DNA of 64,000 nt from Roseomonas sp. KE0001 (lineage in GTDB: Bacteria; Pseudomonadota; Alphaproteobacteria; Acetobacterales; Acetobacteraceae), in contig NZ_RCVQ01000001.1 of NCBI RefSeq assembly GCF_016107285.1, positions 558,001 through 622,000 of the forward strand. The letters run 5' to 3'. Positions 1 through 55,714 of the stretch are shown here, piece by piece; within the stretch, counting starts at the first letter, position 1, and each line of letters starts with the position of its first letter. Under the pieces are notes generated by a model. The model was not told the DNA's origin. It searched no databases and saw nothing but the letters and a program-made list of their open reading frames with translations. The position numbers were made by a program, and so were the translations under genes.

Positions 1-1
1 T

Positions 2-976
2 TACAGCATCCCCGCCCGCAACGGCCCGGTGGGCCCGGAGGAGCTGCGCGAGATCAAGGCCAACTACGCCGCCATCCGGGAGAAGGCCCGCGGCTCCACG
101 AACGGCCATCCCTTCGACATCGCCGAGGATTCCCCGCTCGATCTGGACGAGCCGGCGCGGCTGGCGCGCTACGAGGCGGCGTGGGAGAGGGGCGGGCTGC
201 GCTTCCGGGCCGCCTTCCGCGATCTCCTGACCAACAAGGCGGCCAACGACACGGCCTCCGACTTCATCCGCGCCAAGATCCGCACCATCGTCCGCGATCC
301 GCGCGTGGCGGAGATGCTGACGCCGAAGGACCATCCCTTCGCCACCAAGCGGCCGCCGATCGACACCGAGTACTTCGAGACCTTCAACCGCGACAACGTC
401 ACGCTGGTGGATATCAAGGCGACGCCGATCGAATCGATCACGCCCACCGGCATCCGCACCAGCGAGGCGGAGTATCCGCTCGATATCATCGTCTTCGCCA
501 CGGGGTTCGACGCGATGACGGGGCCGCTGCTGGCCATCGACATCCGCGGGCGGGACGGGCTGTCGCTGCGCGAGGCCTGGTCGGCCGGGCCGCGCACCTA
601 TCTCGGCCTGCAGGTCGCGGGCTTCCCCAACATGTTCACCATCACCGGGCCCGGCAGCCCTTCGGTGCTGACCAACATGCCCGTCGCGATCGAGCAGCAT
701 GTCGACTGGATCACCGCCTGCATCGGGCACATGCGCCGGCAGGGGCTGCAGCGCATCGAGGCGCGGCCGGAGGCGGCGGAACGCTGGGTGGCGCATGTGA
801 ACGAGGCCGCCAACGCCACGCTGCTGCCCCTGGCCAACAGCTCCTGGTATCTCGGCGCCAACGTGCCGGGCAAGCCGCGCGTCTTCATGCCCTACGCGGG
901 CGGCATGGCGAACTACGCGCGCCGCTGCGCCGAGGTGGCGGCCAATGACTATGAGGGCTTCGTGCTGGCGCGCTGA
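2..976 (+). CDS. Baeyer-Villiger (class B flavin) monooxygenase, C-terminal part
   Basis: FAD- and NADPH-dependent enzymes of this family insert one oxygen atom beside a ketone carbonyl, giving an ester or lactone. The frame is open from base 2, so the start codon, the N-terminal FAD Rossmann motif and the FxGxxxHxxxW fingerprint lie upstream of the window. About 324 residues are visible of a family usually near 540. The visible part has the VFATGFD segment (bases 491-511) and the GPGSPSVLTNM segment (bases 647-679), both typical of cyclohexanone-monooxygenase-like enzymes. An esterase gene follows after 74 bp on the same strand, the classic partner that hydrolyses the ester or lactone product. 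The substrate cannot be read from the sequence. Confidence 0.88.
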   Translation, partial: YSIPARNGPVGPEELREIKANYAAIREKARGSTNGHPFDIAEDSPLDLDEPARLARYEAAWERGGLRFRAAFRDLLTNKAANDTASDFIRAKIRTIVRDPRVAEMLTPKDHPFATKRPPIDTEYFETFNRDNVTLVDIKATPIESITPTGIRTSEAEYPLDIIVFATGFDAMTGPLLAIDIRGRDGLSLREAWSAGPRTYLGLQVAGFPNMFTITGPGSPSVLTNMPVAIEQHVDWITACIGHMRRQGLQRIEARPEAAERWVAHVNEAANATLLPLANSSWYLGANVPGKPRVFMPYAGGMANYARRCAEVAANDYEGFVLAR

Positions 977-1050
977 GCCGCCGGCGGCACGAGACCTTGG
1001 CCGGGAGGCGGCGGCGACCGCCCCCGGCCGTCCATGGGAGGAGGAACCCC

Positions 1051-1995
1051 ATGCCAGCCCTTCATCCGGATGTCCTCGCCGTGCTCCGGGCGGCGCGGGA
1101 GGCCGGCAGCAGGCCTTTCGAGACGCAGACGCCGGCGGAAGCGCGCGCCGCCCATCTGCAACGCGCGCGCGTCCTGCAATCGCCGGGCCCATGGCTGCCG
1201 GAGGTGAGGGATCTGGTGGCGCGGAGCGGGGAGGGGCCGCCCGTGCCGCTGCGGCTGTACCGGGGTGGCGCGGCGCCGGAGAGCGGGCTCTCGCCCTGCC
1301 TGCTGTTTCTCCATGGCGGCGGATGGGTGCTGGGCGGGCTGGAGACGCATGATTCGCTCTGCCGCCAGCTCGCGCACCACCTCGGCGCCTGTGTGCTGGC
1401 GGTGGATTACCGGCTGGCGCCGGAGCATCCCTATCCGGCGGCGCTGGAGGATGGTCTGGCGGCGCTGCGCTGGCTGGCGGCGGAGGCCGGGGCCCTCGGC
1501 ATCGACCGCACGCGCATCGCCGTCGGTGGCGACAGCGCGGGGGGCAATCTGGCCGCCGTGCTGGCCCTGATGGCGCGCGATGGCGATGCGCCGGCGGTCG
1601 CCTTCCAGATGCTGCTCTACCCCGCCGTCGACCTCGCCATGACCGGCGAGAGCTACGAGCGCTTCCGCGACGGGCTTCCGCTCACGGCGGCGACGATGCG
1701 CTGGTTCATCGACCACTACCTGCCGCCGCCGCTGGACCGCACCGACTGGCGCGCCTCGCCCGCGCGGGCGGCGAGCCTGCGCGGCGCCGCCCCGGCCCTC
1801 GTGCTCACCTGCGGCCACGATCCGCTCTGCTCGGAAGGGCAGCTCTATGCGGCGCGGCTGGAGCGGGAGGAGGTGCGTGTCACCGCCCTGCATCTCGCCG
1901 ACCAGATGCACGCCGTGCTCAGCATGGATCGTGTCATCGCGCCGGTGGGCGAGGTCATCTCCTTCGCGGCGGGGATCCTGAAACGCGCCTGGTGA
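1051..1995 (+). CDS. HSL-family alpha/beta hydrolase (esterase or lactonase)
   Basis: Carboxylic ester hydrolase of the hormone-sensitive-lipase (family IV) type, 314 residues, probably cytoplasmic. An HGGGW oxyanion motif sits at residues 88-92. The nucleophile Ser162 lies in GDSAGG, the acid is probably Asp257 in GHDPL, and the base is His287 in DQMHA, so the triad looks complete. The start at 1051 has a strong GGGAGGAGG ribosome-binding site at 1036-1044; a longer frame upstream lacks one. It lies between a Baeyer-Villiger monooxygenase and an ABC importer, which suggests hydrolysis of the ester or lactone that the monooxygenase makes. This role is inferred from context. Confidence 0.9.
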   Translation: MPALHPDVLAVLRAAREAGSRPFETQTPAEARAAHLQRARVLQSPGPWLPEVRDLVARSGEGPPVPLRLYRGGAAPESGLSPCLLFLHGGGWVLGGLETHDSLCRQLAHHLGACVLAVDYRLAPEHPYPAALEDGLAALRWLAAEAGALGIDRTRIAVGGDSAGGNLAAVLALMARDGDAPAVAFQMLLYPAVDLAMTGESYERFRDGLPLTAATMRWFIDHYLPPPLDRTDWRASPARAASLRGAAPALVLTCGHDPLCSEGQLYAARLEREEVRVTALHLADQMHAVLSMDRVIAPVGEVISFAAGILKRAW

Positions 1996-2108
1996 GAGCG
2001 GCGCCGAACATGTTGACGCCATGGAACGGCGACAGCCACCATGACGGAAAATCAACGAAGAAACGACCGAGATGGGCGCGAAGCCCGCCGGCAACAGGGA
2101 GAACGGGA

Positions 2109-3368
2109 ATGTTCAAGAGTGCAAAGCAGGTGGGGCGGCGCGCCCTGCTCGCCGGCGCGGCGACCGGTGCGGCCGTGCTGGCCTCGCCGCGCATCGCCGG
2201 CGCCCAGGCCAAGGTGATCCGTGTCGGCATGCCGACGATCCTGTCGGGCCGCGTGGCCATCCTCGGCACGTCCAGCCGCTACGCGGTGCAGTATGCCTTC
2301 GCCCGCATCAACGAAGCGGGCGGCCTGGGCGGACGCACGCTGCAACTGGTGGAGCGGGATTCCAAGGGCCGCCCGGACGAGGCCGCCAAGGTGACGCGCG
2401 ACCTCATCAACAATGACGGCTGCGAGATCATCATCGACGGCGAGGCCTCCTCCGGCGCCTTCGCGGTGCATGAGGTGGTGCGCGAGCTGCCGGTGCTCTG
2501 CATCCACACGAACTCCGAGACCTCCTCGCTGACGGCCGATCCCAAGCTGCGGATCGCCACCGCCTTCCGCTGCGCCCGGCAGGGAATCCACGACGCCGTG
2601 GCGGGCGGCGTCTATGCCTCCGCCATCTCGAAGCAGCGCGGGCTGAAGCGATGGATGACCTGCTCGCCCGACTATGCCTATGGCCGCGACAACACCGCCG
2701 AGTTCCTGGAGTTCGCGCGCATGTACGACCCGTCCATCGAGGTGGTGGACCAGGTCTGGCCGCGCCTCTTCGCGCCGGACTACACGGAGAACATCACGAA
2801 GGCGCTGCAGGTGCGGCCGCAGGCGATGTACTCGGCGCTCTGGGGCGGCGACCTGGTCAGCTTCATTGAGCAGAGCAACCTCTACCGCCTCTTCGCCAAC
2901 ATCGCGCTGTTCTCCTCCTCCCTGGGCGACCCGCCGGTGCTGACCGCCATCAAGCAGCTGCCGCCCGGCCTGCACACCGCCTATCGCTACAACCGCAACT
3001 ATCCGGAGAAGCCCAGCAACACGGCCTTCGCCGACGGCTTCACGGGCGTGGCGAAGCATGAGCCGACCAACTGGGCCTGGCAGAACTACGTCGCCTGCCA
3101 GTTCATCGCCGAGGCGCTGAAGCGCACCGGCGGCAGGACCGAGGGCGCGGCCCTGGCGGCCGAGCTGAAGGGGATGGCGATCCAGTCGCCACTCGCCGTC
3201 GAGGAGGTGCTGACCCTGCGCGATTCCGACCACACGCTGATCGGCTATCCGACGGCCTGGGGGCGCACGGTTCCCAAGGCGCCGTTCGTGGAGGACTTCG
3301 CGACGACCCCCTGGTCCAGGATCCTGGAGATGGAGACCCAGTGGAAGCGGCAGAAGGGCTACGCCTGA
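2109..3368 (+). CDS. ABC transporter substrate-binding protein, branched-chain amino acid type
   Basis: Periplasmic type I binding protein of the LivJ/LivK superfamily, 419 residues. The N-terminus has a twin arginine at residues 10-11 followed by a hydrophobic stretch and an AGA-QA-like cleavage site near residue 32, so export may use the Tat route. The mature part opens with the usual VIRVGMPTILSG strand. The start at 2109 has an AGGGAGAACGGGA ribosome-binding region. It heads a five-gene transporter operon (to 6808). Members of this family bind amino acids but also amides, urea and aromatic acids. The neighbouring ketone-oxidising genes suggest a non-amino-acid ligand here. Confidence 0.9.
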   Translation: MFKSAKQVGRRALLAGAATGAAVLASPRIAGAQAKVIRVGMPTILSGRVAILGTSSRYAVQYAFARINEAGGLGGRTLQLVERDSKGRPDEAAKVTRDLINNDGCEIIIDGEASSGAFAVHEVVRELPVLCIHTNSETSSLTADPKLRIATAFRCARQGIHDAVAGGVYASAISKQRGLKRWMTCSPDYAYGRDNTAEFLEFARMYDPSIEVVDQVWPRLFAPDYTENITKALQVRPQAMYSALWGGDLVSFIEQSNLYRLFANIALFSSSLGDPPVLTAIKQLPPGLHTAYRYNRNYPEKPSNTAFADGFTGVAKHEPTNWAWQNYVACQFIAEALKRTGGRTEGAALAAELKGMAIQSPLAVEEVLTLRDSDHTLIGYPTAWGRTVPKAPFVEDFATTPWSRILEMETQWKRQKGYA

Positions 3369-3392
3369 GGCACCGCAACAGGAGATCCATCC

Positions 3393-4295
3393 ATGAACCT
3401 CGATGTCCTGGCGGGCTGCATGACCACAGCCGCCTGCGCCGTCACCCAGGTCTCCACCGGGCTGATCGTGGGCATGCTGCTCTTCCTCGTCGCTTCGGGA
3501 CTGTCCCTCATCTTCGGTGTTCTCGGCGTGGTCAACTTCGCCCATGGCGTGTTCTACATGCTGGGCGCCTACTTCGCCTTCGTCACCTATGAGCAGACCG
3601 GAAGCTTCCTCCTGGCGCTCCTGGCCGGAGCCTCCGGCGCGGGGCTCGCCGGCATCGTCTTCGAACGGTTCTTCATGAGCCGTGTCTATGGCCAGGACCT
3701 GCTGATGCAGCTCTTGGTCTGCTATGCCGCCATCCTGATCTGCGACGACCTAGTGAAGATCATCTTCGGCGCGGACTACAAGCTGATGGGCATGCCGGAG
3801 AGCTTCGCCACGGCGCCGGTGGAACTCGCTGGCGGCTTCATCCCCGGCTACTACATCTTCATGCTGGCCATGGCGCTGGGCGTCGGCGCCGCGCTCTGGC
3901 TCGGCATCAACCGCACCCGGCTGGGCAAGATCATCCGCGCCCTCGCCATCAATCCGCAGATGGTCGGCGCGCTCGGCATCAACACGCGGCTGCTCTATGC
4001 CGGCGTCTTCGGCCTGGGCTGCCTGCTGGCGGGCCTGGCCGGCGCCCTGGCCGCGCCGGTGCGCACCCTGACGCCGGGCATGGGCCTCTCGGTGCTGATC
4101 GAGAGCTTCATCGTCACCGTGATCGGCGGCATGGGATCGATTCCCGGCGCGCTGATCGCGGCCATCCTGATCGGGCTAACGCGCGCCTTCGGAGCCATCG
4201 GCTTTCCCCTCTTCGTCGACGGGCTGATGTTCGCGCTGATGGGTCTGGTCCTGATCCTGCGGCCCTCGGGCCTGCTGGGCGCGAAGGTCAGCTAG
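3393..4295 (+). CDS. Branched-chain amino acid-type ABC transporter permease (LivH family)
   Basis: Inner-membrane permease of the LivH type, 300 residues with about eight hydrophobic segments. The family hallmarks are seen as GLSLIFGVLGVVNFAHG near residues 32-50 and a C-terminal VTVIGGMGSIPGALIAA segment. An AGGAGAT ribosome-binding site precedes the start by 7 nt. The gene follows the binding-protein gene by 24 bp and is separated from the LivM-type gene by one base, so the set is one transcription unit. It would form the channel together with the next gene product. Confidence 0.93.
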   Translation: MNLDVLAGCMTTAACAVTQVSTGLIVGMLLFLVASGLSLIFGVLGVVNFAHGVFYMLGAYFAFVTYEQTGSFLLALLAGASGAGLAGIVFERFFMSRVYGQDLLMQLLVCYAAILICDDLVKIIFGADYKLMGMPESFATAPVELAGGFIPGYYIFMLAMALGVGAALWLGINRTRLGKIIRALAINPQMVGALGINTRLLYAGVFGLGCLLAGLAGALAAPVRTLTPGMGLSVLIESFIVTVIGGMGSIPGALIAAILIGLTRAFGAIGFPLFVDGLMFALMGLVLILRPSGLLGAKVS

Positions 4296-4296
4296 A

Positions 4297-5325
4297 ATGC
4301 GGCAGGGCCTGATACGCGACCTCACGCTCGGCCTGCTGGGACTGGCGCTCCTGCTGGTCCTGCCGGCGGTCTTTCCGCATCCCTCGCTGCGGGATTTCCT
4401 GATCTATGTCATCGCCTATGGCCTTCTGGCGATGTCGCTGAACCTCCTGGTCGGGTTGACCGGGCTGGTCTCCTTCGGCCACGCCGCCTATTTCGCCACC
4501 GGCGCCTATATCTTCGGCCTGCTGATGCAGTCGGGATCGGTCTCGATCCCGCTTGCCATGCTGGCGGCGCTGGCGGGCACGGCGCTGCTCGCCCTGGTCA
4601 TCGGTGCCATCTGCGTGCGCCTGAAGGAGATCTACTTCTCCTTCATCACCCTGGCGTTCCAGATGTTCATCCACAGCATCATCCTGACCTGGGTCGATCT
4701 CACGGGAGGCGACCAGGGGCTGCGCGGCGGCATTCCACGGCCGCCCTTCCTCGGCATCGACCTCGGCCAGCCGGGCACGCTCTACATCTTCTGCGCGGTG
4801 GTCTTCGTGCTCTGCCTGCTGCTGATGCGCCAGGTCTGGCAATCGCCCTTCGGCTACACGCTGCGCATGATCCGGGATAATCCGACGCGCGCCAGTTTCC
4901 TGGGCGTGAACGTGGTGCGGATGAAGCTCGGCGTCTTCGTGCTGGCGGGCACCATGGCCAGCATGGCCGGCATCATCATGGCGCTGTTCGTCTCCGGCGC
5001 CTTTCCCGAGTTCGGCTTCTGGACCACCTCCGGTGAGGCCATCTTCATGATCATGCTGGGCGGCACGCAGGTCTTCCTCGGCCCGGTCATCGGCGCCTTC
5101 CTGCTGCAGCTTCTGAACCATTACGTCACCATCTACACCCATCACCACGGGCTGGTGCTGGGCATCCTGATTCTCGCCATCGTGCTCGGCCTGCGGCGCG
5201 GCGTGGCGGATTACGTCGCCGACTGGATCTCGGAGCGGAGGCGGGCCGCCGCGCCGCTGGGCCGGGAGGAGGGGGCCGAAACCGCACCGCCGACGCCCCC
5301 CGCCGCGCGCAAGATGGTGGGGTGA
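4297..5325 (+). CDS. Branched-chain amino acid-type ABC transporter permease (LivM family)
   Basis: Second membrane subunit of the importer, 342 residues. It shows the LivM-type segment AMSLNLLVGLTGLVSFGHAAYFATG near the N-terminus, several further hydrophobic helices, and a charged, Arg/Ala/Pro-rich cytoplasmic tail of about 35 residues. The start codon lies one base after the stop of the LivH-type gene, which implies translational coupling. A 4-bp gap leads to the first ATPase gene. The ligand is unknown. Confidence 0.93.
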   Translation: MRQGLIRDLTLGLLGLALLLVLPAVFPHPSLRDFLIYVIAYGLLAMSLNLLVGLTGLVSFGHAAYFATGAYIFGLLMQSGSVSIPLAMLAALAGTALLALVIGAICVRLKEIYFSFITLAFQMFIHSIILTWVDLTGGDQGLRGGIPRPPFLGIDLGQPGTLYIFCAVVFVLCLLLMRQVWQSPFGYTLRMIRDNPTRASFLGVNVVRMKLGVFVLAGTMASMAGIIMALFVSGAFPEFGFWTTSGEAIFMIMLGGTQVFLGPVIGAFLLQLLNHYVTIYTHHHGLVLGILILAIVLGLRRGVADYVADWISERRRAAAPLGREEGAETAPPTPPAARKMVG

Positions 5326-5329
5326 GCCG

Positions 5330-6091
5330 ATGCTGCAGGTCGAACATCTCTGCAAGTCCTTCGGCGGCGTACAGGCCACGCGTGACGTCTCGCTGAACTT
5401 CCCGGCCGGCTCGCTCACCGCCATCATCGGACCGAACGGCGCCGGCAAGACGACCTTCTTCAATCTCATCTCCGGCCAGTTGCGGCCGGATGCCGGCCGT
5501 GTCGTCTTCGACGGCGAGGACATGGTGGGTCTCTCCAGCCTCGACGTCGTCCGCCGCGGCATGGCGCGGGCCTTTCAGGTCGCCGCGCTCTTCCCGAGCC
5601 TGACGGTGCGGGAAGCGCTCACCGCAGCGGTCACGGCGCATCAGCGCCGCTCCTGGTCGCTGCTCTCCCGCTTTCCTCTGGCGCAAAGCCGCGCGCGGGT
5701 CGACGAGATCCTCGACCTCCTGGGGCTCGCGCCGAAGGCGGAGCTGCTGTCGCGGACCCTGTCGCACGGCGACCAGAAGCTGCTCGATATCGGTCTTGCC
5801 CTGGCGATGCGGCCCAAGGTGCTCCTGCTTGACGAGCCGACGGCCGGCATGGGTCCCGATGAGCGGTGGCGGATGATCGAGAAGGTGCATCATCTCTGGC
5901 GCGCGCAGAGCCTGACGGTCATCTTCATCGAGCACGACATGGACATCGTCTTCAAGTTCGCCGAGGCGGTGCATGTGCTGAAGTACGGCGCCGTCCTGGC
6001 GCAGGGCACGCCGGCCGAGATCCGGCGGAACCAGGATGTGATCGACGCCTATCTCGGCACCGATCATCATCTCGCCGTGGCGGAGGGCTGA
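5330..6091 (+). CDS. ABC transporter ATP-binding protein (LivG family)
   Basis: Cytoplasmic ATPase subunit, 253 residues. Walker A is GPNGAGKTT at residues 34-42. The signature is a variant LSHGDQKLL instead of LSGGQ, normal for LivG-type proteins. Walker B is VLLLDEPTAGMG, and the switch His lies in FIEHDMD. The gene sits between the permease genes and a second ATPase gene, as in other five-component importers of this family. It forms a heterodimer with the following LivF-type protein. Confidence 0.93.
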   Translation: MLQVEHLCKSFGGVQATRDVSLNFPAGSLTAIIGPNGAGKTTFFNLISGQLRPDAGRVVFDGEDMVGLSSLDVVRRGMARAFQVAALFPSLTVREALTAAVTAHQRRSWSLLSRFPLAQSRARVDEILDLLGLAPKAELLSRTLSHGDQKLLDIGLALAMRPKVLLLDEPTAGMGPDERWRMIEKVHHLWRAQSLTVIFIEHDMDIVFKFAEAVHVLKYGAVLAQGTPAEIRRNQDVIDAYLGTDHHLAVAEG

Positions 6092-6094
6092 GAC

Positions 6095-6808
6095 ATGGCT
6101 TCCCCCATCCTCGAGGTGCGCGGCACGGACGTCTTCTACGGCGCCAGCCAGATCCTGTTCGGCATCGACCTGTCCGTCGGCCGTGGCCAGACCATGGCGC
6201 TGCTCGGCCGCAACGGGGCGGGCAAGAGCACCACCTTCAAGGCCATCGCCGGGATCGCGCCGCCGCGCCGCGGGCAGGTGATGCTCTCCGGCACCAGCCT
6301 GGCCGGCAAGGCGCCCTACCTCGTGGCGCGAGCCGGCGTCGGCTATGTGCCGGAGGACCGCCAGGTTTTCCCGGAGCACACGGTCGAGGACAATCTGATC
6401 GTCGGCGCCAAGGCCGGCCCGCGCGGCGACCGGCACTGGACCACCGAGCGGATCTACGAGGTCTTTCCCATCCTGGCCGGGATGCGCCGGCGCATGGCGG
6501 GGCGCCTCTCGGGGGGCGAGCAGCAGATGCTCACCATCGCCCGCACCCTGATGGGCAATCCCGACATCCTGCTGCTCGACGAGCCGAGCGAGGGGCTCGC
6601 GCCGCTGATCGTCCAGGCCATCGGAGCCCTCATCCGGCAGCTTCGCGAGATGGGCGTCACCATCCTGATCGCGGAGCAGAACATGCATTTCTGCCTCGGC
6701 GTCGCCACCCATGCGGCGGTGATCGACAAGGGGCAGGTGGTCTACAGCGACACGATCGAGGCGCTGCGCGGCGATGATGCCGTCAGGCAGCGCTATCTGG
6801 CGGTCTAG
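6095..6808 (+). CDS. ABC transporter ATP-binding protein (LivF family)
   Basis: Second ATPase of the importer, 237 residues. Walker A is GRNGAGKST at residues 38-46, the signature is LSGGEQQML, Walker B is ILLLDEPSEGLAP, and the switch region is AEQN. The length and the YVPEDRQVFPEHTVEDNL segment fit LivF. The start is 3 bp after the LivG-type stop. It closes the transporter genes; a short-chain dehydrogenase follows 41 bp later on the same strand and may be co-transcribed. Confidence 0.93.
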   Translation: MASPILEVRGTDVFYGASQILFGIDLSVGRGQTMALLGRNGAGKSTTFKAIAGIAPPRRGQVMLSGTSLAGKAPYLVARAGVGYVPEDRQVFPEHTVEDNLIVGAKAGPRGDRHWTTERIYEVFPILAGMRRRMAGRLSGGEQQMLTIARTLMGNPDILLLDEPSEGLAPLIVQAIGALIRQLREMGVTILIAEQNMHFCLGVATHAAVIDKGQVVYSDTIEALRGDDAVRQRYLAV

Positions 6809-6849
6809 GGCGGGCCCATGGACATGCAACACGGGAGAGGCGTCGCAGG

Positions 6850-7635
6850 ATGACACGGGATGAGGGGCGCGGCCGCGTGGCGCTGGTGACCGGCGCGGGA
6901 AGCGGGATCGGCCTGGCCACGGCCGGCGTGCTGGCGGCGCGCGGCTGGCGCGTGGTCCTGGCCGATCTCAACATCGCGGCGGCCCGCGCGGCGGCGGAGA
7001 CGCTGGGCGCCGAGGCCGTCGCGCTCGATGTCACCGACGCCGCGGCCACCGAGGCCGTCTTCGCCGATGTCGAGGCGCGGCTCGGGCCGCTGGAGGCGCT
7101 GGTGGCCAATGCCGGCCTGATCCAGCCCGGGGATCCGCCGGAGCGGCTGGCGCTGGAGGAGTTCGACCGCGTCATCGCCGTCAATCTGCGCGGCGTCTAT
7201 GTGTCCTGCGTCGCCGCCGGCCGGCGCATGGCGGCGCGGGGACGGGGCGGGATCGTCGTCACCGGCTCGATCACCGCCAGTCGCACCGCGCCGCTGCACG
7301 CCTATGCGCCGTCCAAGGCGGCGGCGGTGCATATGGCGGCCTGCCTGGCCGCAGAATGGGGCCGGTCCGGGGTGCGGGTGAACGCGGTCTCGCCAGGCTA
7401 TGTCGCGACGCCGCCGGTGCAGGCCGCCATCGAGCGCGGCCTGCGCGATCCCGCCCTGCTGGCCGAGGCCTCGGCGCTGGGCCGCATGGTGCGGCCCGAG
7501 GAGATCGGCGCGGCCGTCGCCTTCCTCCTCTCGGAGGACGCGGCGGCGATCACGGGCATCAATCTGCCGGTCGATGCCGGCTGGCTGGCGGGGGCGCACC
7601 TGGCCACCTATGGCGGCCTGCGCCCCGCCCGCTGA
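6850..7635 (+). CDS. SDR family NAD(P)-dependent oxidoreductase
   Basis: Classical short-chain dehydrogenase, 261 residues, interconverting an alcohol and a ketone. It has the TGAGSGIG cofactor motif near residue 15, a VANAG motif, and the Ser...Tyr-x3-Lys active site in TGSITASRTAPLHAYAPSKAA. An acidic residue after the second strand (VLADLN) favours NAD(H). It is the last gene of the block that holds the monooxygenase, esterase and importer, so it could supply the ketone substrate from an alcohol, as cyclohexanol dehydrogenase does in cyclohexanol catabolism. That role is inferred. Confidence 0.88.
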   Translation: MTRDEGRGRVALVTGAGSGIGLATAGVLAARGWRVVLADLNIAAARAAAETLGAEAVALDVTDAAATEAVFADVEARLGPLEALVANAGLIQPGDPPERLALEEFDRVIAVNLRGVYVSCVAAGRRMAARGRGGIVVTGSITASRTAPLHAYAPSKAAAVHMAACLAAEWGRSGVRVNAVSPGYVATPPVQAAIERGLRDPALLAEASALGRMVRPEEIGAAVAFLLSEDAAAITGINLPVDAGWLAGAHLATYGGLRPAR

Positions 7636-7650
7636 GGCGCCCGCGCGCCG

Positions 7651-8394
7651 TCAGCGGTAGTGCAGGGCGCCGTTCACGTCGAGGACGGCGCCGGAGACAT
7701 AGCCGGCGCCCGGGCTGACGAGAAAGGCCGCGGCGGCGGCGATCTCCTCCGGCAGGGCCATGCGCCGCAGCGGGTACTGCTCCGGCCGGTAGTCCCGGCC
7801 GGCCGTCATCGGCGTCTCCACCGGGCCCGGGGCAATGGCGTTGACCAGCACGCCCTGCGGCGTCCCGCGCCGTGCCAGCCAGCGCACGAAGGCATGGAGG
7901 CCGCCCTTGGAGAAGGCGTAGTGCGGCCCGGAGGCGACGCCTCCCATCCAGCCGGCGATGGAGCCGCAGAGCACGATCCGTCCCCGCCCGCGGGCCGCCA
8001 TGCCGGGCAGGACGGCGCGCGTCAGGTTGATCGGGCCGCGGACATTGACATCCAGCACCCTCTGCAGCGCCGCGTCCCAGTCCTCGTCCATCCAGTCGTC
8101 GGCGGGACAGATGGCGGCCATGTCGATCAGCGCGTCGATCTCCCCCGCCTCGCGGGCCAGCCGCTCCACCGCGGCACGATCGCTGACATCCAGGCGGTGG
8201 CAAGAGAACGGCGCGTCCAGGGCGCCGACGTGGCCGGCGATCCGCTCGGACGATTCCCGGTCCGCCAGCACCAGCCGTCCGGCACCCTGCGCGGCGCAGA
8301 GCCGTGCCGTGGCGCCGCCGATGCCACCCGCGGCGCCGGTGATGAGGATGGTCTGGCCATCGAGCGAGAAGGGATGGCTGTCCGGCTTGGTCAT
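7651..8394 (-). CDS. SDR family oxidoreductase (second, convergent)
   Basis: Short-chain dehydrogenase of 247 residues with the cofactor motif TGAAGGIGGATA and an active site in CGSIAGWMGGVASGPHYAFSKGG (Ser, Tyr and Lys all present). The VLADRE segment after strand two again points to NAD(H). I chose the internal ATG at 8394; a frame starting at 8472 adds 26 residues that do not resemble an SDR N-terminus. It converges on the other SDR gene, with 15 bp between the stops. Whether it acts in the same pathway is unknown. Confidence 0.87.
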   Translation of the reverse strand: MTKPDSHPFSLDGQTILITGAAGGIGGATARLCAAQGAGRLVLADRESSERIAGHVGALDAPFSCHRLDVSDRAAVERLAREAGEIDALIDMAAICPADDWMDEDWDAALQRVLDVNVRGPINLTRAVLPGMAARGRGRIVLCGSIAGWMGGVASGPHYAFSKGGLHAFVRWLARRGTPQGVLVNAIAPGPVETPMTAGRDYRPEQYPLRRMALPEEIAAAAAFLVSPGAGYVSGAVLDVNGALHYR

Positions 8395-8581
8395 GGTGAT
8401 CGGCTTCCCCCTGTCGCGGGGTTGGTTCCCCGTCCACCCCGCATGGGACCGCCATGCATCAGGCGCGGCCACGCTAGGGCTTCCGCGCTCGGCCTGACCA
8501 GAGGGAAGTCACGGAGCCATTCCTCCGGTCTGCGGTGGCAGGCCGGGGCGGTTCGCGAGGATAACGTAGCGGAGCGGGAAC

Positions 8582-8672
8582 TGGCGGATGGGGTGGGATT
8601 CGAACCCACGATACCCTTTTGAGGTATACACACTTTCCAGGCGTGCGCCTTCGACCGCTCGGCCACCCATCC
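8582..8672 (-). tRNA. tRNA-Ser (anticodon GGA)
   Basis: The reverse strand reads as a complete serine tRNA: acceptor GGATGGG paired with CCCATCC, the D-arm segment GGCCGAGCGG, an anticodon loop CTGGAAA (GGA, reading UCC and UCU), the long variable arm typical of class II tRNAs, GGTTCGAATCC in the T arm, discriminator G and an encoded CCA. It is read right to left, with a promoter-like sequence about 15 bp upstream. Confidence 0.95.
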
Positions 8673-8686
8673 AGCGCAGGGCCGGG

Positions 8687-8714
8687 GGTATAGCAGCCTT
8701 TGCCCGTCCGACAA
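8687..8714 (-). promoter_or_regulatory. Probable promoter of tRNA-Ser
   Basis: On the minus strand TTGTCG (8714-8709) is followed after 16 bp by TATACC (8692-8687). This sigma-70-like pair ends 14 bp before the tRNA 5' end, a sensible distance for a start site with a very short leader. Sequence match only. Confidence 0.5.
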
Positions 8715-55637: not shown

Positions 55638-55714
55638 GGCGGTGTAGCTCAGCTGGTTAGAGCACGGCACTCATAATGCCGGGGTCGGCGGTTCAAGTCC
55701 GCCCGCCGCTACCA
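55638..55714 (+). tRNA. tRNA-Met (elongator, anticodon CAU)
   Basis: A complete 77-nt tRNA: acceptor GGCGGTG paired with CGCCGCT, D arm GCTCAGCTGGTTAGAGC, anticodon loop CTCATAA (CAU), T arm with GGTTCAAGTCC, and encoded ACCA. The D-arm and the anticodon stem resemble elongator Met rather than initiator tRNA; the tRNA-Ile(CAU) alternative is less likely. Its last 22 bases overlap the 3' end of a gene predicted on the opposite strand. Confidence 0.93.

Follow-up and report, generated by a model that had tools for sequence, protein, structure and literature searches.

Phenylacetone monooxygenase (PAMO) and its relatives are widely used in biocatalysis, and we know of no native substrate of PAMO. 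The chnABC pathway of cyclohexanol degradation employs a short-chain dehydrogenase (SDR), a Baeyer-Villiger monooxygenase (BVMO) and a hydrolase, and its regulator ChnR is of the AraC/XylS type. For BVMOs in general, physiological substrates are widely unknown, as stated in PMC4498894, which also places T. fusca in one BVMO clade with Afipia and Bradyrhizobium sequences. In Comamonas testosteroni KF-1, a BVMO and then an esterase act on the anionic aryl ketone 4-sulfoacetophenone (PMC3746432, in excerpt), and in Cupriavidus necator JMP134 ATP-binding cassette (ABC) importers of the Liv family (family 4) lie beside aromatic catabolic genes (PMC2842291, in excerpt). Here we describe a locus of Roseomonas sp. 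KE0001 in which a PAMO-clade BVMO gene is accompanied by an importer of this class, most likely a coherent, conserved import-and-Baeyer-Villiger operon that is a variant of known catabolic operons. Unprefixed coordinates are positions in the window, the whole 64,000-nucleotide stretch analysed (contig NZ_RCVQ01000001.1, here C1, 558001-622000) of this 4.46-Mb, 46-contig genome (G000). The literature searched, mostly outside subscription journals and with supplements excluded, yielded no BVMO operon with a Liv-type importer.

Architecture of the locus and its proteins

Eight reading frames, all on the plus strand, occupy positions 2-7635 from the BVMO to the first SDR (SDR1), so that the single-strand run of BVMO, esterase, five-gene importer and SDR described in the initial annotation is borne out in place, family and motif. 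The type I BVMO frame (2-976) is open at the window edge and comprises the C-terminal 324 of 548 codons; the complete gene (C1:557330-558976, 548 codons) starts at window position -670. It is followed by genes for an HSL-family esterase (1051-1995, 314 aa, Abhydrolase_3, with an in-frame TTG upstream at 997), a periplasmic substrate-binding protein with a twin-arginine-like leader (2109-3368, Peripla_BP_6), two Liv/Urt-type permeases (3393-4295 and 4297-5325, BPD_transp_2, by Pfam and NCBIfam), a LivG/UrtD-like ATPase 1 (5330-6091), a LivF/UrtE-like ATPase 2 (6095-6808; both ABC_tran, by Pfam, NCBIfam and motifs) and SDR1, a classical SDR assigned by the same three means (6850-7635, adh_short_C2). 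The successive intergenic gaps measure 74, 113, 24, 1, 4, 3 and 41 bases. A second, convergent SDR gene (SDR2, 7651-8394, minus strand; frame open to a GTG at 8472, start at 8394 chosen) lies 15 bases from SDR1. The genome sequence beyond the window edge contains the BVMO start, a LysR regulator gene divergent from it (C1:556266-557162; HTH_1 and LysR_substrate) and, in the region between the two genes, the palindrome TGTGA-N7-TCACA (C1:557170-557186). The LysR gene, the palindrome and the minus-strand SDR2 were absent from the initial annotation.

We consider it probable that these genes form a LysR-controlled import-and-catabolism operon. The LysR protein would bind the palindrome and control a single transcript carrying the BVMO, esterase, binding protein, two permeases, two ATPases and SDR1, which are presumably co-transcribed. 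The binding protein would capture a small organic acid, or an alcohol or ketone with an acid group, for uptake by the ABC importer; an NAD-dependent SDR would convert a secondary alcohol to a ketone, the BVMO, of the PAMO/steroid monooxygenase (STMO) type, would insert oxygen beside the carbonyl, and the esterase would split the ester, a host esterase presumably taking over where the operon lacks its own. SDR2 may act on a second hydroxyl or on the released alcohol. The order import, alcohol, ketone, ester, products fits the sequence context, and we infer both this order and the substrate class. Because a PAMO-clade BVMO is accompanied here by importer, regulator and likely operator, screening a single binding protein for ligands could be a way to its substrate.

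The whole BVMO scores highest among solved proteins with PAMO (653 bits, E 3.8e-195) and STMO (636 bits), compared with 547 (T. municipale), 495 and 466 bits for cyclohexanone monooxygenases. Taking as type I BVMOs single chains of ~540 aa with FxGxxxHxxxWP between two GxGxxG motifs, the fingerprint FSGQWYHTGRWP is intact at 171, between the Rossmann motifs GAGFAG (26) and GTGSTG (197) of a 548-aa chain, and PAMO K336/R337 align with K340/R341, counted on the alignment. The 324-residue piece within the window gave no Pfam match; the complete protein is the sole BVMO match in its genome at E 1e-10. In the esterase, the HGGG (88) and GDSAGG (160) motifs that define the HSL family are intact within an Abhydrolase_3 domain (E 3.3e-72), and the score against NCBIfam LipP1 (321 bits) falls under the cut-off of 350. 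Both SDRs possess the TGxxxGIG cofactor motif, the YxxxK catalytic motif and an aspartate after the second strand (LAD), which by SDR rules we take to point to NAD and hence to oxidation. SDR2 is counted to the locus because six named relatives (L104, L109, L115, L119, L121 and L122) carry its gene on the same strand as the operon, as Methylobacterium currus also does.

All five importer subunits match broad Liv Pfam families, and Walker A and signature motifs are intact in both ATPases. As a branched-chain amino acid importer, however, the set misses every NCBIfam Liv cut-off (score/cut-off 66/379, 76/366, 190/362 and 182/441 bits for LivH, LivM, LivG and LivF, and 59/477 for the Liv binding protein). 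Every cut-off for the urea importer UrtABCDE is missed as well, the Urt models being the best ones for the four membrane and ATPase subunits (UrtB 156/250, UrtC 110/296, UrtD 226/304, UrtE 234/286) and the binding protein reaching 52/493 bits against UrtA. The binding protein has 15 matches in its own genome at E 0.001, counting itself, and both arginines of its RR leader are invariant across 25 alignment rows.

Conservation, linkage and the LysR-BVMO palindrome

Conservation was assessed in 397 genomes of the family, in which the binding protein was scored at E 1e-60 on the best few candidates per genome, so that misses are possible, and in the best 80 of 295 confirmed places in public species genomes (named loci); arrangements were read from tblastn matches under our own identity and coverage limits. 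The binding protein occurs in 46 of the 397 genomes, including that of KE0001, and 42 of the 45 others encode a BVMO (E 1e-60) anywhere. The BVMO gene lies within 10 kb of the binding-protein gene in 14 of these 45, compared with 0.66 expected at random; in 20,000 random-placement simulations the count of linked genomes never exceeded 5. At least six arrangements were found. Five congeners (L040-L044) share the order LysR, divergent from BVMO, esterase, importer and SDR1; elsewhere the importer is followed by the BVMO (L063, L068, L073 and L075), is convergent with BVMO-esterase (L074) or with a BVMO of 57% (L056), is flanked by the esterase on one side and the BVMO on the other (L077), or is divergent from the BVMO (L045), and in L082 the BVMO lies 5' of an importer whose other genes are inverted.

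The initial annotation would have counted a lack of conserved gene order in related genomes against its reading, but the order is conserved beyond the genus: 18 of the 80 named loci, from several families (Pseudoroseomonas, Roseomonas, Methylobacterium, Enterovirga, Afipia, Tardiphaga, a Bradyrhizobiaceae metagenome-assembled genome (MAG), Rhizobium and a Herminiimonas MAG), share the collinear arrangement of a LysR gene divergent from BVMO, an optional esterase and importer. On a binding-protein tree of 96 rows, built by a quick method with Bradyrhizobium thinned, the window falls in a clade of 27 rows, of which 22 are linked to a BVMO, 2 to the thiamine-dependent E1 module described below and 3 to no module. 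The view that coupling a dedicated importer to such catabolic genes is unusual is not borne out, given these 22 rows and the Liv-family importers beside catabolic genes in Cupriavidus (PMC2842291, in excerpt). The operon is also present on plasmid records of Roseomonas marmotae (the same place as L044, genome G374 of the family set), M. currus and Pararhizobium qamdonense. The M. currus plasmid carries, beside the operon, another Liv-type importer accompanied by an SDR (L182, 1-5235), with GntR and glutathione S-transferase genes between.

LysR orthologues (E 1e-70) were found in 10 of the 397 family genomes, 9 of which also have the binding protein (hypergeometric p 1.6e-8, kinship ignored). 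The palindrome has a single exact copy in the 4.46-Mb genome, 7 bases from the assumed LysR start. Of 26 LysR-BVMO intergenic regions from other loci, 16 contain it without mismatch (12 of 22 with four duplicated genomes removed), and the aligned regions contain further conserved columns beyond it. Among the plasmid-borne operons, it is exact in M. currus and has a single mismatch in P. qamdonense. Across 2.53 Mb of loci, duplicates counted, 19 exact palindromes occur, 16 of them in LysR-BVMO regions. We infer that LysR binds this palindrome, which is likely its operator. The three remaining exact sites (L129 3683, L130 4534 and L134 3635), in Reyranella and its tree neighbours, lie 5-6 kb from the importer, have the form TGTGATCACA[G/T]ATCACA and are perhaps sites of another regulator. 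A second LysR copy (89%) in G162 (L187, G162:C63, 1567-2471), near the edge of a short contig that shows none of its target genes, likewise has an exact palindrome upstream.

Several observations weigh against a single conserved operon. The 113-base gap 5' of the binding-protein gene could house a second promoter; the corresponding gap between matches spans 208-329 bases in the five congeners. A sigma-70 and terminator scan of window 1-8700 was uninformative on this point, with zero promoter-like sites (0.6 expected by chance) and 3 terminator-like sites compared with 1.7 expected. The palindrome is inexact in 10 of the 26 loci. Four have one mismatch, with the site at the usual position in L074 and L114 but at another point of the intergenic region in L118 and L122; six have two mismatches, with the site at roughly the usual position in L106, L109, L111, L116 and L117 but at another point in L110. 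The otherwise collinear L104, L107, L109, L115, L119 and L121 have no esterase. Finally, the linkage odds leave kinship aside, five of the 14 linked genomes being congeners with one arrangement, and a nearby BVMO is absent from 31 of the 45 family loci (6 with the E1 module, 25 with no module), several of them ending at contig ends.

Partner modules and the imported compound

The importer also keeps other company. Among the 80 named loci, 24 have a PAMO-type BVMO, 28 a long BVMO, 1 both, 9 the E1 module and 18, several of them cut by contig ends, no module. In six family genomes the importer adjoins genes for E1-alpha, E1-beta, crotonase, E2 and acyl-CoA dehydrogenase (in L071 the crotonase match is apart from the rest), and in 5 of these 6 an SDR gene sits between the permease and ATPase genes. 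That SDR and SDR1 are related but are not called orthologues because they do not form one clade in a quick tree. E1-beta of the module type (E 1e-125) occurs in 7 of the 397 genomes, six of which are the importer genomes, with physical linkage in all six (hypergeometric p 1.1e-5); in the seventh, G127, the module is accompanied by a ligase, and no importer match was found in the 18 kb around it or at E 1e-60. The module is importer-linked in Oceanibaculum, Bosea, Shinella and others, too. Its E1-beta scores highest with a T. thermophilus 2-oxo acid dehydrogenase (305 bits), ahead of pyruvate dehydrogenases (≤287 bits), and the plasmid matches of E1-alpha, among the 25 listed, are mostly generic thiamine pyrophosphate-dependent E1 proteins, with some acoA at 47%. 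An assignment as acetoin or branched-chain dehydrogenase was not adopted, E1-beta being nearest to 2-oxo acid and pyruvate dehydrogenases. In Bradyrhizobium loci, a divergent set of ligase, TetR, optional SDR and long BVMO faces the importer; in the one long BVMO examined (L143), the fingerprint reads FKGEMLHSALWT and departs from the motif at one residue. A 44% relative in Variovorax precedes genes with choline dehydrogenase and aldehyde dehydrogenase annotations.

Mapped on the binding-protein tree, the module states require at least 7 changes, module-free rows uncounted. For two pairs chosen across module switches, identity in the presumed cleft segments exceeds that elsewhere in the protein (87.5% versus 70.6% for the window and the E1-linked L125 of Oceanibaculum pacificum; 97.2% versus 94.8% for L074 and L076). 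Binned by overall identity, same- and cross-module pairs have cleft identities of 68.8 and 72.6 (40-50%), 79.3 and 78.0 (50-60%), 87.4 and 88.6 (60-70%) and 92.9 and 91.1 (70-80%). Such mostly similar cleft segments beside different modules suggest interchangeable ketone-cleaving modules. An importer and alcohol-dehydrogenase core might thus feed alternative carbonyl-cleaving modules acting on one imported compound, the oxygen-inserting and thiamine-dependent routes replacing each other: a PAMO-type BVMO with or without esterase, the thiamine-dependent E1-alpha/E1-beta/E2 with crotonase and acyl-CoA dehydrogenase, or the N-terminally extended BVMO of Bradyrhizobium with an acyl-CoA ligase. We propose this tentatively, as less likely than not; the 80-90% bin counts against it (96.5 same-module versus 89.6 cross-module, n = 36 and 18). 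Mutual exclusion of the E1 module and a linked BVMO was not significant (0/15 versus 6/31 genomes, Fisher p 0.16). The partner modules offer a second handle on the substrate, a compound that would also have to suit a thiamine-dependent E1/E2 complex.

As to the ligand, an AlphaFold2 model of the binding protein (mean pLDDT 86.8) is closest to 3i45 (Z 43.9) and 3i09 (Z 42.8), the titles of which name no ligand. Matches 3-7 are the R. palustris binding proteins 4eyg, 4ey3, 4evq, 4f06 and 4evs (Z 41.5-40.0), and the titles of four of the five describe complexes with vanillate or a hydroxybenzoate; leucine-type binders score lower (LivJ 4gnr, Z 38.7; others 36-38). On this model the ligand leans towards an organic, perhaps aromatic, acid. 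The preference of the initial annotation for a ketone, alcohol or related acid over an amino acid is supported to this extent: the importer is tied to ketone enzymes, and the missed Liv cut-offs and the nearest structures make a leucine or valine ligand improbable. A more specific branch of the favoured operon reading would have a plant-derived phenylpropanoid-type acid or hydroxyketone imported and its side chain trimmed by BVMO and esterase, as with 4-sulfoacetophenone. The aromatic-acid binders of R. palustris, the PAMO/STMO clade of the BVMO and BenE benzoate-transporter and GntR genes upstream are consistent with it, and we nevertheless regard it as doubtful, for the differences in Z are small, a urea binder (8tg1, Z 39.8) and an amino-acid-annotated protein (39.7) are level with the lower R. 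palustris matches, the fold is common to the class, and no ring-cleavage family occurs among the ten flanking genes scanned.

That an amino-acid or urea-type importer merely shares the stretch by history with an unrelated ketone-detoxification set is unlikely. It would accommodate the many family loci with no BVMO nearby, the sub-cut-off preference of permeases and ATPases for urea-transporter models, and the genomes G202, G269 and G330, in which LysR-BVMO-esterase is convergent to, or apart from, the importer. It would also suit the congener G361 (L186, G361:C592:6000-25000, 1584-6711), where the LysR gene is divergent from BVMO-esterase-SDR1, SDR2 is convergent and the palindrome is exact, but importer genes are absent, 17 bases separating the esterase match from that of SDR1. 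SDR1, BVMO, esterase and SDR2 are therefore able to form a unit of their own, to which the importer is an addition, unless it was lost in G361. Set against this are the linkage in several arrangements and lineages far beyond random expectation, the other partner genes of the importer, which likewise act on alcohols or ketones or make acyl-CoA, and a binding-protein model somewhat nearer to aromatic-acid than to leucine binders.

Least probable of all is the cyclohexanol-type ring cleavage suggested by the initial annotation, with the SDR as cyclohexanol dehydrogenase, the BVMO as cyclohexanone monooxygenase and the esterase as lactonase: the same three enzyme classes do lie within one gene run, but the BVMO is closer to PAMO and STMO than to any cyclohexanone monooxygenase (≤547 bits), the regulator is of the LysR and not the AraC/XylS class, the ten flanking genes scanned include no aldehyde dehydrogenase family, a small uncharged alcohol would scarcely require high-affinity ABC import, six collinear operons have no esterase and nothing indicates a ring substrate, so that this weak analogy should be dropped.

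Flanking genes and comparison with known systems

The Pfam scan of ten flanking genes identified an SDR, a BenE benzoate transporter, a GntR regulator, PhoX, TelA and two proteins without a family upstream, and S-adenosylmethionine decarboxylase, spermidine synthase and a hybrid histidine kinase downstream. The BenE gene is divergent from the GntR/FCD regulator gene (L009:8149-10121, window -7851 to -5879), ~5-7 kb upstream of the BVMO; the pair is a faint hint at aromatic acids, and the other flanking genes look unrelated to the operon. ARAGORN located two tRNA genes in the window, tRNA-Ser(gga) at 8582-8672 (minus strand) and tRNA-Met(cat) at 55638-55714 (plus strand).

Among solved BVMOs, PAMO (1w4x) and STMO (4aos/4ap1/4ap3) are the best relatives, aligned over residues 19-546 and 10-546, respectively. 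In contrast to PAMO, the loop after GPGSPS differs, with A442 replaced by V446 and S444 by T448 (counted on the alignment). As in chnABC, an SDR, a BVMO and a hydrolase occur in one cluster, the hydrolase being missing in the six collinear relatives; the locus differs in its BVMO clade, its divergent LysR regulator, its ABC importer and its second SDR, and the closest solved relative of its BVMO is not the cyclohexanone monooxygenase expected of a ChnB. With JMP134 it shares an importer class adjoining degradation genes, whereas the JMP134 importers are not tied to a BVMO in the accessible part of PMC2842291. The KF-1 genes are framed by IS1071 elements, and a LysR/Liv-importer operon goes unmentioned for that strain in the excerpt of PMC3746432; as in KF-1, however, the BVMO gene is directly followed by that of a carboxylester hydrolase, which in KF-1 is a 4-sulfophenyl acetate esterase.

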